64,000 nucleotides of DNA from Pseudomonas karstica (GTDB lineage: Bacteria > Pseudomonadota > Gammaproteobacteria > Pseudomonadales > Pseudomonadaceae). The stretch lies in contig NZ_WLYI01000001.1 of assembly GCF_009707515.1 (NCBI RefSeq), forward strand, positions 248,001-312,000. Direction: 5' to 3'. Shown here one piece after another: positions 2,081-51,304 of this stretch (position 1 is the first letter of the stretch; every line of letters begins with the position of its first letter). The notes beneath the pieces were generated by a model. It worked only from the letters and a program-made list of their open reading frames with translations. It had not been told where the DNA came from and ran no database searches. Both the position numbers and the translations under genes were made by a program.

Positions 2081-2108
2081 GAACTTTGCCAGAGCTTCTA
2101 TCCTCAGA
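2081..2108 (+). promoter_or_regulatory. Probable AlgU (sigma-22/RpoE-like) promoter of osmC
   Basis: GAACTT at 2081-2086 and TCAGA at 2104-2108 are separated by 17 bases. The AlgU consensus is GAACTT-N16/17-TCtgA. It ends 40 bases before the osmC start codon. osmC is a known AlgU-regulated gene in P. aeruginosa, which supports the call. The same TCAGA -10 variant occurs in front of the small RNA at 39580. Confidence 0.75.
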
Positions 2109-36655: not shown

Positions 36656-39460
36656 ATGAGCCAAGCCCCCCTCGTCCTGGTGGACGGTTCTTCATATCTG
36701 TACCGCGCCTTTCATGCGCTGCCACCGCTGACCACCTCCAAAGGCCTGCCGACCGGTGCGGTCAAGGGCGTGTTGAACATGCTCAAGAGCCTGCGCAAAC
36801 AGTACCCGGACAGTCCGTTCGCGGTGGTGTTCGACGCCAAGGGCGGGACATTTCGCGACGAGATGTATGCCGAATACAAGGCCAACCGCCCGAGTATGCC
36901 TGACGATATGCGCCTGCAGATCGAGCCGCTGCACCAAAGCGTGGTCGCCCTGGGCTTTCCGTTGCTGTGTGTCGAAGGTGTCGAGGCAGACGACGTGATT
37001 GGCACCCTGGCCCGCAGTAGCGCGGCTGCCGACCGGCCGGTGGTGATCTCCACGGGCGACAAAGACATGGCACAGTTGGTAGATGGGCACATTACCTTGG
37101 TCAACACCATGACCGGTAGCGCCATGGACATTGAGGGAGTGAAGGAGAAATTCGGTGTCGCTCCCGAACAGATCATCGACTATCTGGCACTGATGGGGGA
37201 TTCGTCCGACAACATTCCAGGTGTTCCGGGCATCGGGCCGAAGACCGCGTCCGGCTTGCTGGTGGGCGTCAATGGTGGCCTGAAAGAGCTTTACGAGCAG
37301 CTCGATATCGTCCCGGCCCTGCCAATCCGGGGGGCCAAGACCTTGCCGGCCAAGCTGGTGGAGCATAAGGAGATGGCTTTCCTCTCCTACCAACTGGCAA
37401 CCATCAAGATCGATGTGCCACTGGATATAGGGCTGGAAGATTTGCACCTGGTTGAGCCGGATCGTGAAAAGCTGCTTGAGCTTTACACCTTGCTTGAGTT
37501 CAAGAGCTGGTTTGAAGAGATTCAGCGCGATACCAGGCGTGTCGAGCTGAAGGTGGTTAACGAGGTTGCTCCTGTAACTGCTGTCGCAAAGGGCACGATT
37601 GAGACGGCCGCGCCGGTTCCTGTCGAGACGGTGTACGAAACCATCCTTGACCAAGCTCGACTCGATATCTGGCTGAAGAAACTCAGTGATGCGAAGTTGT
37701 TCGCCTTCGATACCGAAACCACCGGGATCGATGCCCAGCAAGCGCAGTTGGTTGGTGTGTCCTTTGCGGTCCAGGCGAATGAAGCGGCCTACATCCCGTT
37801 GACCCATTCCTACATCGGCGTGCCGCAGCAACTGGACCGGGACACCGTCCTGCTGGCCTTGAAGCCATTGCTGGAGGATCCGCACAAACTCAAGGTCGGC
37901 CAGCACGCCAAGTTCGACATGAACATTCTGGCCAACTGCGCCATCGGCGGTGACCCTGCATGCGGCATCACCGTGCGCGGCATAGCCTTCGATACCATGC
38001 TCGAATCCTACGTCTTGAACTCCACCGCGACCCGGCACGACATGGACAGTCTGGCGAAAATGTACCTGGGCCATGACACGGTCAGCTTTCAGGACATCGC
38101 CGGCAAGGGCGCCAAGCAACTGACCTTCGACCAGATTCCCCTTGAGCAGGCCGGCCCTTATGCGGCTGAAGATGCCGATGTCACCCTGCGCCTGCACCAG
38201 GCGCTGTACGAGCAGCTTACTGCTCTGCCGAGCCTGGCTGGCGTGTTGACGGACATCGAGATGCCGTTGGTGCCGGTGTTGGCCCGCATCGAGCGCCAGG
38301 GCGCCTTGGTGGATGCGCAGCTGCTGGGCGTCCAGAGTATTGAGTTGGGCAACAAGATGGTGGAGCTGGAGCGCGAGGCGTTTGAGATCGCTGGCGAGGA
38401 GTTCAACCTCGGCTCGCCCAAGCAATTGGGGGTGATCCTCTACGAAAAGTTGGGACTGCCGGTACTGAAGAAGACCGGCAAGGGCCAGGCCTCTACCGCT
38501 GAGGAAGTGCTGGCCAAGTTGGCCGAAGATGACTATCCGCTGCCCAAGGTACTGATGCAGTACCGCAGCATGAGCAAGTTGAAAAGCACGTACACCGACC
38601 GATTGCCCGAGCAGATCAACCCGCGCACCGGGCGTATTCATACCTCGTACCATCAGGCTGTGGCTGCGACCGGGCGTCTGTCCTCCAGCGACCCCAACTT
38701 GCAGAACATTCCGGTGCGTACCGCAGAAGGCCGGCGGATCCGTCAGGCATTCGTCGCCCCCAAAGGCTACAAGTTGCTGGCGGCGGACTATTCGCAGATC
38801 GAGCTGCGCATCATGGCGCATTTGTCCAAGGACGAAGGTTTGCTGAATGCGTTTCGCGACAATCTGGATGTTCACACGGCCACGGCGGCCGAGGTGTTCA
38901 AGGTTGAGCTGGGAGAGGTCACGTCCGATCAGCGCCGCAGTGCCAAGGCGATCAACTTCGGCCTGATCTACGGCATGGGGGCGCAGAAACTGGGCAAGGA
39001 CATTGGCGTCGACACCAAGACGGCCAAGGCCTACATCGATGTCTACTTCGCCCGCTATCCCGGGGTTCGCGAGTATATGGAGCGAACCCGCGCCCAGGCC
39101 TCTGATCAGGGTTATGTGGAAACCCTGTTCGGACGTCGGCTGTATCTGCCGGATATTCACTCCAACAGGCCTCAGGAGCGCGCCGGTGCAGAGCGTACGG
39201 CGATCAATGCGCCGATGCAGGGTACTGCGGCAGATATCATCAAGAAGGCAATGGTCAAGGTGGACGACTGGCTGAGCGCATCAGGCCTGGATGCCAAGGT
39301 CATCCTTCAGGTACACGACGAACTGGTGCTTGAAGTCCGTGAGGATCTGGTGGCCGAAGTCAGCGAGAAAATTCGCGAGCACATGAGTGCTGCGGCGAAG
39401 CTGGATGTGCCGTTGCTGGTTGACGTCGGGGTAGGCAACAACTGGGATGAAGCTCATTGA
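36656..39460 (+). CDS. polA: DNA polymerase I
   Basis: Start at ATG 36656 (MSQAPLVLVDGSSYLYRAFHA) gives 934 residues, the normal length. The N-terminal 5'-3' exonuclease has DAKGGTFRDEMY and GDSSDNIPGVPGIGPKTA. The 3'-5' proofreading domain is active-looking, with FDTETTG and the later YAAEDADVTLRL. The polymerase domain shows motif A DYSQIELRIMAHLS, motif B RRSAKAINFGLIYGMG, and motif C QVHDELVLEV. It fills gaps in repair and Okazaki processing. A small RNA gene follows, as at the spf locus of E. coli. Confidence 0.98.
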   Translation: MSQAPLVLVDGSSYLYRAFHALPPLTTSKGLPTGAVKGVLNMLKSLRKQYPDSPFAVVFDAKGGTFRDEMYAEYKANRPSMPDDMRLQIEPLHQSVVALGFPLLCVEGVEADDVIGTLARSSAAADRPVVISTGDKDMAQLVDGHITLVNTMTGSAMDIEGVKEKFGVAPEQIIDYLALMGDSSDNIPGVPGIGPKTASGLLVGVNGGLKELYEQLDIVPALPIRGAKTLPAKLVEHKEMAFLSYQLATIKIDVPLDIGLEDLHLVEPDREKLLELYTLLEFKSWFEEIQRDTRRVELKVVNEVAPVTAVAKGTIETAAPVPVETVYETILDQARLDIWLKKLSDAKLFAFDTETTGIDAQQAQLVGVSFAVQANEAAYIPLTHSYIGVPQQLDRDTVLLALKPLLEDPHKLKVGQHAKFDMNILANCAIGGDPACGITVRGIAFDTMLESYVLNSTATRHDMDSLAKMYLGHDTVSFQDIAGKGAKQLTFDQIPLEQAGPYAAEDADVTLRLHQALYEQLTALPSLAGVLTDIEMPLVPVLARIERQGALVDAQLLGVQSIELGNKMVELEREAFEIAGEEFNLGSPKQLGVILYEKLGLPVLKKTGKGQASTAEEVLAKLAEDDYPLPKVLMQYRSMSKLKSTYTDRLPEQINPRTGRIHTSYHQAVAATGRLSSSDPNLQNIPVRTAEGRRIRQAFVAPKGYKLLAADYSQIELRIMAHLSKDEGLLNAFRDNLDVHTATAAEVFKVELGEVTSDQRRSAKAINFGLIYGMGAQKLGKDIGVDTKTAKAYIDVYFARYPGVREYMERTRAQASDQGYVETLFGRRLYLPDIHSNRPQERAGAERTAINAPMQGTAADIIKKAMVKVDDWLSASGLDAKVILQVHDELVLEVREDLVAEVSEKIREHMSAAAKLDVPLLVDVGVGNNWDEAH

Positions 39461-39547
39461 AAACGGGTTTTTGTCGCGGCAAATGAATGTCGGCTTTTTA
39501 GGTGGAAAACACTAACGGCTATTTCCAATAGTTTTTCCAGCTTGCCG

Positions 39548-39574
39548 GAACTTAACCCATGAAAGCCACTCAGA
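39548..39574 (+). promoter_or_regulatory. AlgU-type promoter of the polA-engB small RNA
   Basis: GAACTT at 39548-39553, a 16-base spacer, and TCAGA at 39570-39574. ErsA of P. aeruginosa is transcribed from an AlgU-dependent promoter in the same intergenic region. The start site would fall near 39580. Confidence 0.82.
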
Positions 39575-39579
39575 GCTAC

Positions 39580-39709
39580 TGAATGGGTGGTGAAGCCCTT
39601 CAATGCTCCTATGTTGTGTTAAGTGTTGGCAGATATCCGGACTGCACCCTAGCGGTCCGGAACTTGTACCCCGAACTTCCCTCCCCATACGAAGTCCGGG
39701 GTTTTTTTT
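39580..39709 (+). ncRNA. ersA: ErsA-like small regulatory RNA (Spot 42 position)
   Basis: No gene fills the 273 bases between polA and engB, but a promoter, two hairpins and a terminator do. From the predicted start near 39580 the transcript would be about 130 nt, close to the reported ErsA length. An internal stem pairs TCCGGAC (39636-39642) with GTCCGGA (39655-39661). The terminator is CCCCGAACTTC (39669-39679) with GAAGTCCGGGG (39691-39701) and eight T. ErsA is an Hfq-dependent envelope-stress RNA controlling exopolysaccharide and biofilm genes in P. aeruginosa; targets here are untested. It converges on engB. Confidence 0.85.
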
Positions 39710-39733
39710 GCCTGCGTTTTCGCCCAAAACGTA

Positions 39734-40375
39734 TTATTCGGCCGCTTCAGAGCCTTTGTCCGCCAACTCCATCCAGCCTGCCAGCACGGTGTAGGCGTCT
39801 TCCAGGCCCAGGCGTTTTGGCGCCGAGAACAACTGGATAGTGATCGCATCACCCCAACTTTTGCGAATTTCAGCTTGTACCTTGAGTAAGGTATTTTTCG
39901 CTGCGCCGTAGGTCAGCTTGTCAGCCTTGGTCAGCAGAATATGCATTGGCATGCCGCTGGCGACGGCCCAGTCAAGCATCAGCAGGTCGAAATCGGTCAT
40001 TGGATGACGGATGTCCATCATCAGAATCAAACCCTTCAAACTCTCCCGGCCGCCCAGATAGGCCTCCAGGTGACGCTGCCAGTGCAGCTTCAACGGGATG
40101 GGTACTTTTGCATAACCGTAGCCCGGCAGGTCGACCAGACGCCGATCATCGTCTAGTTTGAAGAAGTTGAGTAACTGTGTACGCCCTGGTGTTTTTGAGG
40201 TGCGTGCCAGGCTGGCATGGGTCAGGGTGTTCAGCGCGCTGGATTTGCCAGCATTGGAACGGCCGGCGAAGGCTACTTCGAAGCCTTCGTCGTCGGGGCA
40301 TTGGTCGACTTTGGCGGCGCTGAGCATGAAGGTGGACTGTTGGCACAGACCGAGGATGGGATTCTTGAGTTGCAT
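39734..40375 (-). CDS. engB: Ribosome biogenesis GTPase EngB (YihA/YsxC)
   Basis: The frame extends upstream, but the ATG at 40373-40375 ([12 protein letters not shown]) gives the usual 213 residues. GTPase motifs are G1 [10 protein letters not shown]3 DLPGYGYA and G4 TKADK. EngB helps assemble the 50S ribosomal subunit and is often essential. Its 3' end faces the small-RNA terminator. Confidence 0.95.
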
Positions 40376-40448
40376 GAGATTTCCGATGTGGGCGGTGCCG
40401 GGAATGGGTGCGGCAAGCGGTGTCGTTTCCGTTTCAGTAGCGCCAGTA

Positions 40449-40454
40449 TATAAT
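40449..40454 (+). promoter_or_regulatory. Consensus -10 hexamer upstream of the cytochrome c5 gene
   Basis: A perfect TATAAT lies 119 bases before the cytochrome start, in the divergent region with engB. No clear TTGACA occurs at 16-18 bases upstream, so strength is uncertain. Confidence 0.4.
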
Positions 40455-40567
40455 GCCGCAGATTTTGTGTGTGCTTTGTCCCAGCGAAGGATGAAGTTCA
40501 CGGGGGCGATAGACCTTTATTGCGCATTAGAACGCAAAACGCTCTCAAACCCTGAAAAGGTTGTTGC

Positions 40568-50647: not shown

Positions 50648-51304
50648 TGTACCACTCTATAACGGTGGTGCATGACCAGGGGGCCGGGTTGTTCTGATCC
50701 AACGGGATCGGCGTGACCTACGGGTGCAGGGAGTGCCTGCGCGAGGGCCGGGTCAGGAGGAAAGCTGTGCCGCAGGTTCTCAGGCCGGATGGCTTGTTGA
50801 ACTTGCGACAGGCTTGCAGCGCTCATGCAGTTCTTCTCTTATGCAGCTCATAGTTGCAAATTTCCTTTTCGCTTCACTTCAACCAATTCTTAGTGTTTCC
50901 GCGCGACCATCTATCGAGAAAGTTTGGCCTTCGTCAGACCAACTTTTTGAGGGTATGCGTAGGAATTTTAAAGGTTTTTATTCCTTGCTATAAAATCCAT
51001 AAAATCTCTGCGCGAGCCTGAAATTACCGGTTCACGGCAGATATGCCGGCCGAAATGGCTTATTCGAACTGACCGATCAGACAGAAATTTCTAAAAAAAC
51101 TCATGCCGATTCGGCATAGGGTAGGCGTTTACGGCATTAGACGCCGCCCCTTTGCATCGGAATAGTTGCGCCTTTTTTCCCTGCCAGTGAACCGTTCCGG
51201 TGGCTGGTAGTGACCTTCTACGGGGGCCGATGCACACACTTTTTCGCTCTCGAGCGTTCCAGCTGGCGCATCTGCCTGAGTCCACTTGAAGTAAGGGTAA
51301 TGAC
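50648..51304. other. Long intergenic region before gltP
   Basis: About 650 bases with no frame I can support. The composition shifts to AT-rich from about 50850. It contains a weak bulged hairpin with T tract (50919-50948), a TATAAAAT at about 50990, a 15-bp palindrome at 51103, and presumably the gltP promoter. A small RNA or long leader is possible. Confidence 0.6.
51103..51117. promoter_or_regulatory. Operator-like palindrome upstream of gltP
   Basis: ATGCCGA-T-TCGGCAT, perfect seven-base arms around a single base, 188 bases before the gltP start. It has the shape of a dimeric regulator site; no T tract follows, so it is not a terminator. The binding protein is unknown. Confidence 0.4.

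Follow-up and report, generated by a model that had tools for sequence, protein, structure and literature searches.

The small RNA ErsA of Pseudomonas aeruginosa was published with a length of 132 nt (PMC5819304) and was described as a molecule of four domains, in which the stem-loops SL1 to SL3 are accompanied by an unstructured, U-rich domain II of 34 nt (PMC8575079). In both PAO1 and PA14, its expression was reported to depend strictly on sigma-22 (PMC7565897). Among its targets, algC is reported in a review to be paired at the ribosome-binding site (PMC6321483), anr is predicted to pair with the nucleotides 31-54 of ErsA (PMC8575079) and amrZ with the nucleotides 26-56 and 41-52 (PMC5819304). 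The regulation of amrZ by ErsA was given as Hfq-independent in one report (PMC5819304) and listed as Hfq-dependent in another (PMC8575079). Under the name Pseudomon-1, the RNA was already listed for the Pseudomonadales in the survey of 2010 that named it (PMC2864571).

We analysed a stretch of 64 kb from Pseudomonas karstica, which we refer to as the window. The initial annotation had claimed an ErsA homologue in it and had set a covariance search beforehand as the refuting test. When the whole window was searched, RF01719 (Pseudomon-1/ErsA) matched at 39603-39717 (+) with 121.7 bits (E 4.2e-24), well over the curated cut-off of 50 and over the full model length of 1-116. The claim therefore stands, and the locus, the promoter, the length and the domain layout also agree with the published ErsA. 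The match was the sole one in the genome at E <= 0.001. Judged from its sequence, the region 39580-39709 very probably (about 0.96) encodes an AlgU-driven base-pairing sRNA that is the orthologue of ErsA in Pseudomonas. ErsA is an already described, well-studied regulatory RNA of envelope stress, and the copy of P. karstica adds one species.

The RNA gene was found between polA and engB, where it had been placed initially, and its predicted start lies about 120 nt downstream of the polA stop (39460). The convergent neighbour is an open frame whose true start is possibly further in; it is presumably engB, a name given from its position. Among 36 in-genus ErsA loci, within 1-1.5 kb on each side, polA was adjacent in all and engB in 35. 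The nearest named relatives in the comparison were P. brenneri, P. proteolytica and P. gessardii, with PolA proteins 93-96% identical in the part compared. We take these three species to belong to the fluorescens group, and the host is probably a Pseudomonas species of the same group. The features of the locus are listed in Table 1.

Table 1. Features of the ErsA locus of P. karstica, in window positions
Feature	Position	Strand	Evidence or remark
AlgU (sigma-22) type promoter	39548..39574	+	-35 GAACTT 39548-39553, spacer 16, -10 TCAGA 39570-39574
Putative ErsA transcript, ~130 nt, start predicted from the promoter	39580..39709	+	RF01719 match 39603-39717; fold z -3.0
Stem-loop 1	39581..39601	+	Outside the Rfam model (match starts at 39603); alignment columns 5-12 with 18-25
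Domain II, 34 nt, putative mRNA-pairing region (AATGCTCCTATGTTGTGTTAAGTGTTGGCAGATA)	39602..39635	+	Strongly conserved in alignments
Stem-loop 2	39636..39661	+	6/8 pairs changed on both sides; pairing in 98.6% of cells
Stem-loop 3 (39669-39701) and T8 tail (39702-39709): intrinsic terminator, putative Hfq 3' site	39669..39709	+	Covariation
polA, upstream neighbour	36656..39460	+	Pfam DNA_pol_A and exonuclease domains
engB/yihA (presumed name), ribosome-assembly GTPase, convergent neighbour	39734..40501	-	Open frame; Pfam MMR_HSR1, 58.3 bits

The promoter claimed for the RNA, GAACTT-N16-TCAGA, is present and by its sequence is of the sigma-22 (AlgU) type. The motif GAACTT-N16-TCNGA occurred once in the 64 kb window, where 0.08 matches were expected from shuffles, and with a spacer of 16 or 17 there were 2 matches against 0.11 expected. 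All 36 in-genus ErsA copies were preceded by GAACTN-spacer-TCNGA, with a spacer of 17 in 34 of them and of 16 in 2, one of which is P. karstica. That its spacer has the rarer length counts against reading the RNA as the ErsA orthologue. A spacer of 17 was also seen in all named relatives that were compared, three species and one strain, as against 16 in P. karstica. In the genome, a single sigma factor, of the AlgU/RpoE type, exceeded the cut-off of RpoE_Sigma70 (323 bits; 12 further matches were below it), and one Hfq is encoded (100 bits).

Two other elements were noted in the window. A second promoter of the AlgU type, GAACTT-N17-TCAGA, is located at 2081-2108 (+), about 40 bases before the start (2149) of an OsmC-family gene (Pfam OsmC, E 5e-22). 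The cis-regulatory Rfam family ivy-DE (RF02999) matched at 50673-50763 (+) with 85.5 bits (cut-off 41.4).

The distribution of the RNA was followed through the genus. Of 249 genus genomes, 246 had an RF01719 match over the cut-off, and all 240 genomes of good quality were matched; the three genomes without such a match were 73-86% complete. None of 14 control genomes was matched. A pattern that combined the promoter with the 5' box was found in 232 of the 249 genomes, and the reversed control pattern in 4. Of the 17 genomes without the pattern, 3 were also without the RNA, and in at least one of the 17 (G031, locus L017) the promoter is intact and a letter of the box alone differs. The pattern occurred twice in 4 genomes; the second match in G005 is located elsewhere and appears to be a chance match. 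These counts confirm that ErsA is near-universal in the genus Pseudomonas, its stress promoter included. The ErsA regulon can therefore be studied in harmless species.

Some genus genomes had a second match. In G089 and G205, RF01719 matched a second time. In two genomes a second, weak RF01719-like RNA was found away from polA, at 1001-1098 of both L033 and L034, with 36 and 34 bits (cut-off 50), and the surroundings are alike in both. These RNAs follow a DUF3509 frame, assigned by Pfam in L033 and by eye in L034, and GGGAACC is found 51-53 bases upstream. The frame that comes after them is on the opposite strand and had a weak, sub-cut-off match to a solute-binding family in L034 and none in L033.

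The transcript had been claimed to be about 130 nt long, which agrees with the 39580-39709 interval predicted from promoter and terminator and with the 132 nt of the published ErsA. These 130 nt folded better than their shuffles (z = -3.0), only 2 of 200 being as good. The base pairs were counted in the alignment A1, which was thinned for near-duplicates and holds 29 sequences with 27 distinct rows: 26 of the 36 in-genus sequences, among which L030 is represented by the window, and 3 of the 4 sequences that came from the family's other genera. The structure of three hairpins was paired in 93.8% of the cells, and 12 of its 25 pairs were changed on both sides, which was reached in none of 500 shuffles. 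When the structure was slid along the alignment, at most 3 pairs were changed on both sides, a control that favours the counted structure because the analyst had drawn this structure from the same A1 rows.

A single internal hairpin had been proposed upstream of the terminator. A hairpin does exist, but the comparative pairing supports two, stem-loops 1 and 2 (39581-39601 and 39636-39661). Stem-loop 1 is the weakest of the three hairpins: 2 of its 8 pairs were changed on both sides, 84.3% of the cells were paired, the pair 8-22 was unpaired in 22 of the 27 rows and the copy of P. karstica has a mismatch at two of the eight positions. In stem-loop 3, 4 of the 9 pairs were changed on both sides and 97.9% of the cells were paired. 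The hairpins, which covariation supports, correspond to the published layout, in which SL1 and SL2 flank a U-rich domain II; from this layout, domain II is predicted to be open.

The length of 34 nt for domain II depends on the hairpin boundaries that we chose; it agrees, as does the place of the domain, with the description in PMC8575079. In the minimum-energy fold of the P. karstica copy the domain is partly paired. RNAalifold preferred an alternative helix, in which the 3' arm of stem-loop 1 and part of domain II are paired with the rest of domain II; the minimum-energy fold is partly of this kind. Both predictions count against our explanation of the RNA as ErsA. The pairs of the alternative helix are nearly invariant, with no double change among them, so that covariation speaks neither for nor against it; domain II may instead fold in this way.

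The claimed terminator was recovered as a hairpin followed by a run of eight T. The generic promoter and terminator scan, of which the terminator part allows loops of 3-8 bases only, listed neither this hairpin (39669-39701) nor the AlgU promoter (39548-39574) and gave a terminator at 39477-39492 instead. This site bears on the reading that the gap between polA and engB contains only the terminator of polA, conserved by chance or as a read-through product. In its favour are the short distance, about 120 nt, from the polA stop to the predicted start of the RNA gene and the presence of the terminator-like site, with 0.7 expected in shuffles of the region. Against it are the separate promoter, conserved at all 36 loci, the strongly conserved domain II and the three covarying hairpins, and the orthologue of P. 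aeruginosa is an RNA studied by experiment (PMC8575079, PMC5819304). We give this reading practically no weight.

For the ErsA orthologue, the following mode of action is the most likely. Envelope stress would free AlgU (sigma-22), which would start the transcription near position 39580, and an RNA of about 130 nt would be made that ends, according to the sequence, at the U-tract at 39709. Hfq would bind the RNA, probably at its U-rich tail, as the published work on ErsA suggests. Domain II, located between the stem-loops 1 and 2, would then base-pair with mRNAs near their starts and lower or raise their translation, as it would be expected from the published ErsA targets algC, oprD, amrZ and anr. 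Shine-Dalgarno sequences are possible pairing partners of the CUCC within domain II. The differing reports on the role of Hfq in the case of amrZ (PMC5819304 versus PMC8575079) were counted against this explanation.

The pairing with two of the known targets, algC and amrZ, was scored crudely: duplex energies were computed for a 34-nt piece (39603-39636), and the opening energy of the target was added. The set consisted of 54 start-region windows of 120 nt, taken from 50 control genes of the 64 kb window, algC, glmM and two amrZ windows. The algC and amrZ genes were picked by their Pfam family and by eye, and the start codons followed a simple rule in the control genes and were chosen by eye elsewhere. 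With this score, which was not calibrated on known pairs of P. aeruginosa, algC ranked 3rd of 54 with two control genes above it, and amrZ took ranks 40 and 41 with its two windows. The best algC site, from +18 to +53, was within the coding region; in P. aeruginosa, the reported site is the ribosome-binding site. These ranks and the position of the algC site were counted against our explanation. Since two controls were above algC and amrZ was near the bottom, the crude score is evidence neither for nor against the known targets.

The same results bear on whether the RNA is ErsA by descent and has a set of targets in P. karstica that differs from that in P. aeruginosa. The unremarkable score of amrZ and the displaced algC site would fit such a change, but algC was third among the 54, and an uncalibrated score cannot show a loss of pairing. 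We regard a differing target set as possible but doubtful.

Relatives of ErsA were found beyond the family. When RF01719 was searched in 244 genomes of the order, with filters under which weak matches are lost, 13 matches below the cut-off (32.8-45.8 bits) were obtained, spread over 11 genomes from other families. For 9 of the 11, polA and/or engB adjoins the match. The two exceptions (L049 and L057) are from one genus of family f2 and have the ErsA-like RNA near a frame that resembles msrA by eye, with the box GGAACTTTTT; polA was not found in the stretch examined around them, but in L049 the match is preceded by only about 290 bases of contig. GAACTT was present upstream of all 13 matches, 56-58 bases before the match start in 12 and at 70 in L054, compared with 54-56 bases in the genus. 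The -10 element was less uniform. The box TGTGTTnAGTGTTG was found in 11 of the 13, with one extra T in L055 and no box in L054, and the hairpins differ in sequence. The divergent relatives thus show which part is constrained: the box is kept and the hairpins are rewritten. The matches below the cut-off, mostly at the same locus and with GAACTT at a similar distance, suggest that the Rfam model RF01719 is too narrow.

For a new covariance model, a wide alignment A2 was made that left out L054, a weak match without the box. Stem-loop 2 aligned poorly between the families, and therefore no model was built from A2 and the box pattern was searched instead. The pattern was found in 17 of the 244 genomes, 9 of them Pseudomonadaceae and 8 of the families f8 and f34, whereas the reversed control had none. 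It missed some copies that the covariance search had found, such as G028 and the pair of f2, and it found the copy of G451 that the covariance search had missed. In three genomes of family f8, two ErsA-like genes stand in tandem beside polA, 186-209 bases apart. These are L053 and L060 (G409), L052 and L061 (G431) and L077 (G470); the copies share the seed box, and each has a separate GGAACTT or GGGAACTT box. Among the matches listed in the open-licence literature, no title dealt with ErsA outside Pseudomonas. The relatives outside the family are a modest extension, and the relatives of ErsA seem to reach a little further across the bacteria than the public model does.

Taken together, the sequences and the locus provide good support for an apparently older polA-linked sRNA lineage that is present in several families and was duplicated in tandem in one of them. 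A fuller proposal would place ErsA, as the branch of Pseudomonas, within an older sRNA lineage that is driven by envelope stress, became fixed beside polA in several families of the order, was duplicated in tandem in one of these families and perhaps has an origin shared with Spot 42 and sX13; as a whole, we hold it to be unlikely.

The shared place beside polA could also mean that the RNA is a homologue of Spot 42 (spf) rather than ErsA, which we consider highly improbable. Spot 42 is controlled by cAMP-CRP and is not known to depend on an envelope-stress sigma factor. We presume that a Spot 42 model exists in Rfam; in the region 39300-39900, Spot 42 was absent among the four families listed to E = 5, and RF01719 reached 121.7 bits. 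In addition, when 369 genomes from across the class were sampled, the ErsA box pattern was found in 2, each from the Pseudomonadaceae. The Spot 42 reading is favoured by the position of Spot 42 next to polA in E. coli (PMC3771888), by a review in which ErsA is said to have been recognised first as a functional orthologue of Spot 42 (PMC8395346) and by one paper that gives Spot42 as an alternative name of ErsA (PMC5458535). From the parallel to Spot 42 drawn in the initial annotation, the polA-linked position is shared, but with no Spot 42 among the families to E = 5 the link supported here is one of position only.

In conclusion, the RNA of P. karstica can be compared with three known systems. 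sX13 of Xanthomonas, an sRNA with a length of 115 nt, also has three stem-loops and is encoded downstream of polA; it is set apart by its description as confined to the Xanthomonadaceae, as carrying C-rich loop motifs and as Hfq-independent (PMC3771888). Spot 42 of E. coli likewise adjoins polA and is described as a regulator that requires Hfq, but it serves carbon metabolism (PMC3771888) and was not among the families listed to E = 5 in the covariance search of the P. karstica locus. ErsA of P. aeruginosa is matched by the full-length covariance hit, the polA locus, the sigma-22 type promoter, the length of about 130 nt and, compared via the published description, the domain order of SL1, a predicted open domain II of about 34 nt, SL2 and SL3. 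The P. karstica copy differs by its spacer of 16, compared with 17 in 34 of the 36 in-genus copies, by the two mismatches in stem-loop 1 and by the stem-loop 2 region, which reads ACUGCACCC where most rows of A1 have ACCCCGCCC.
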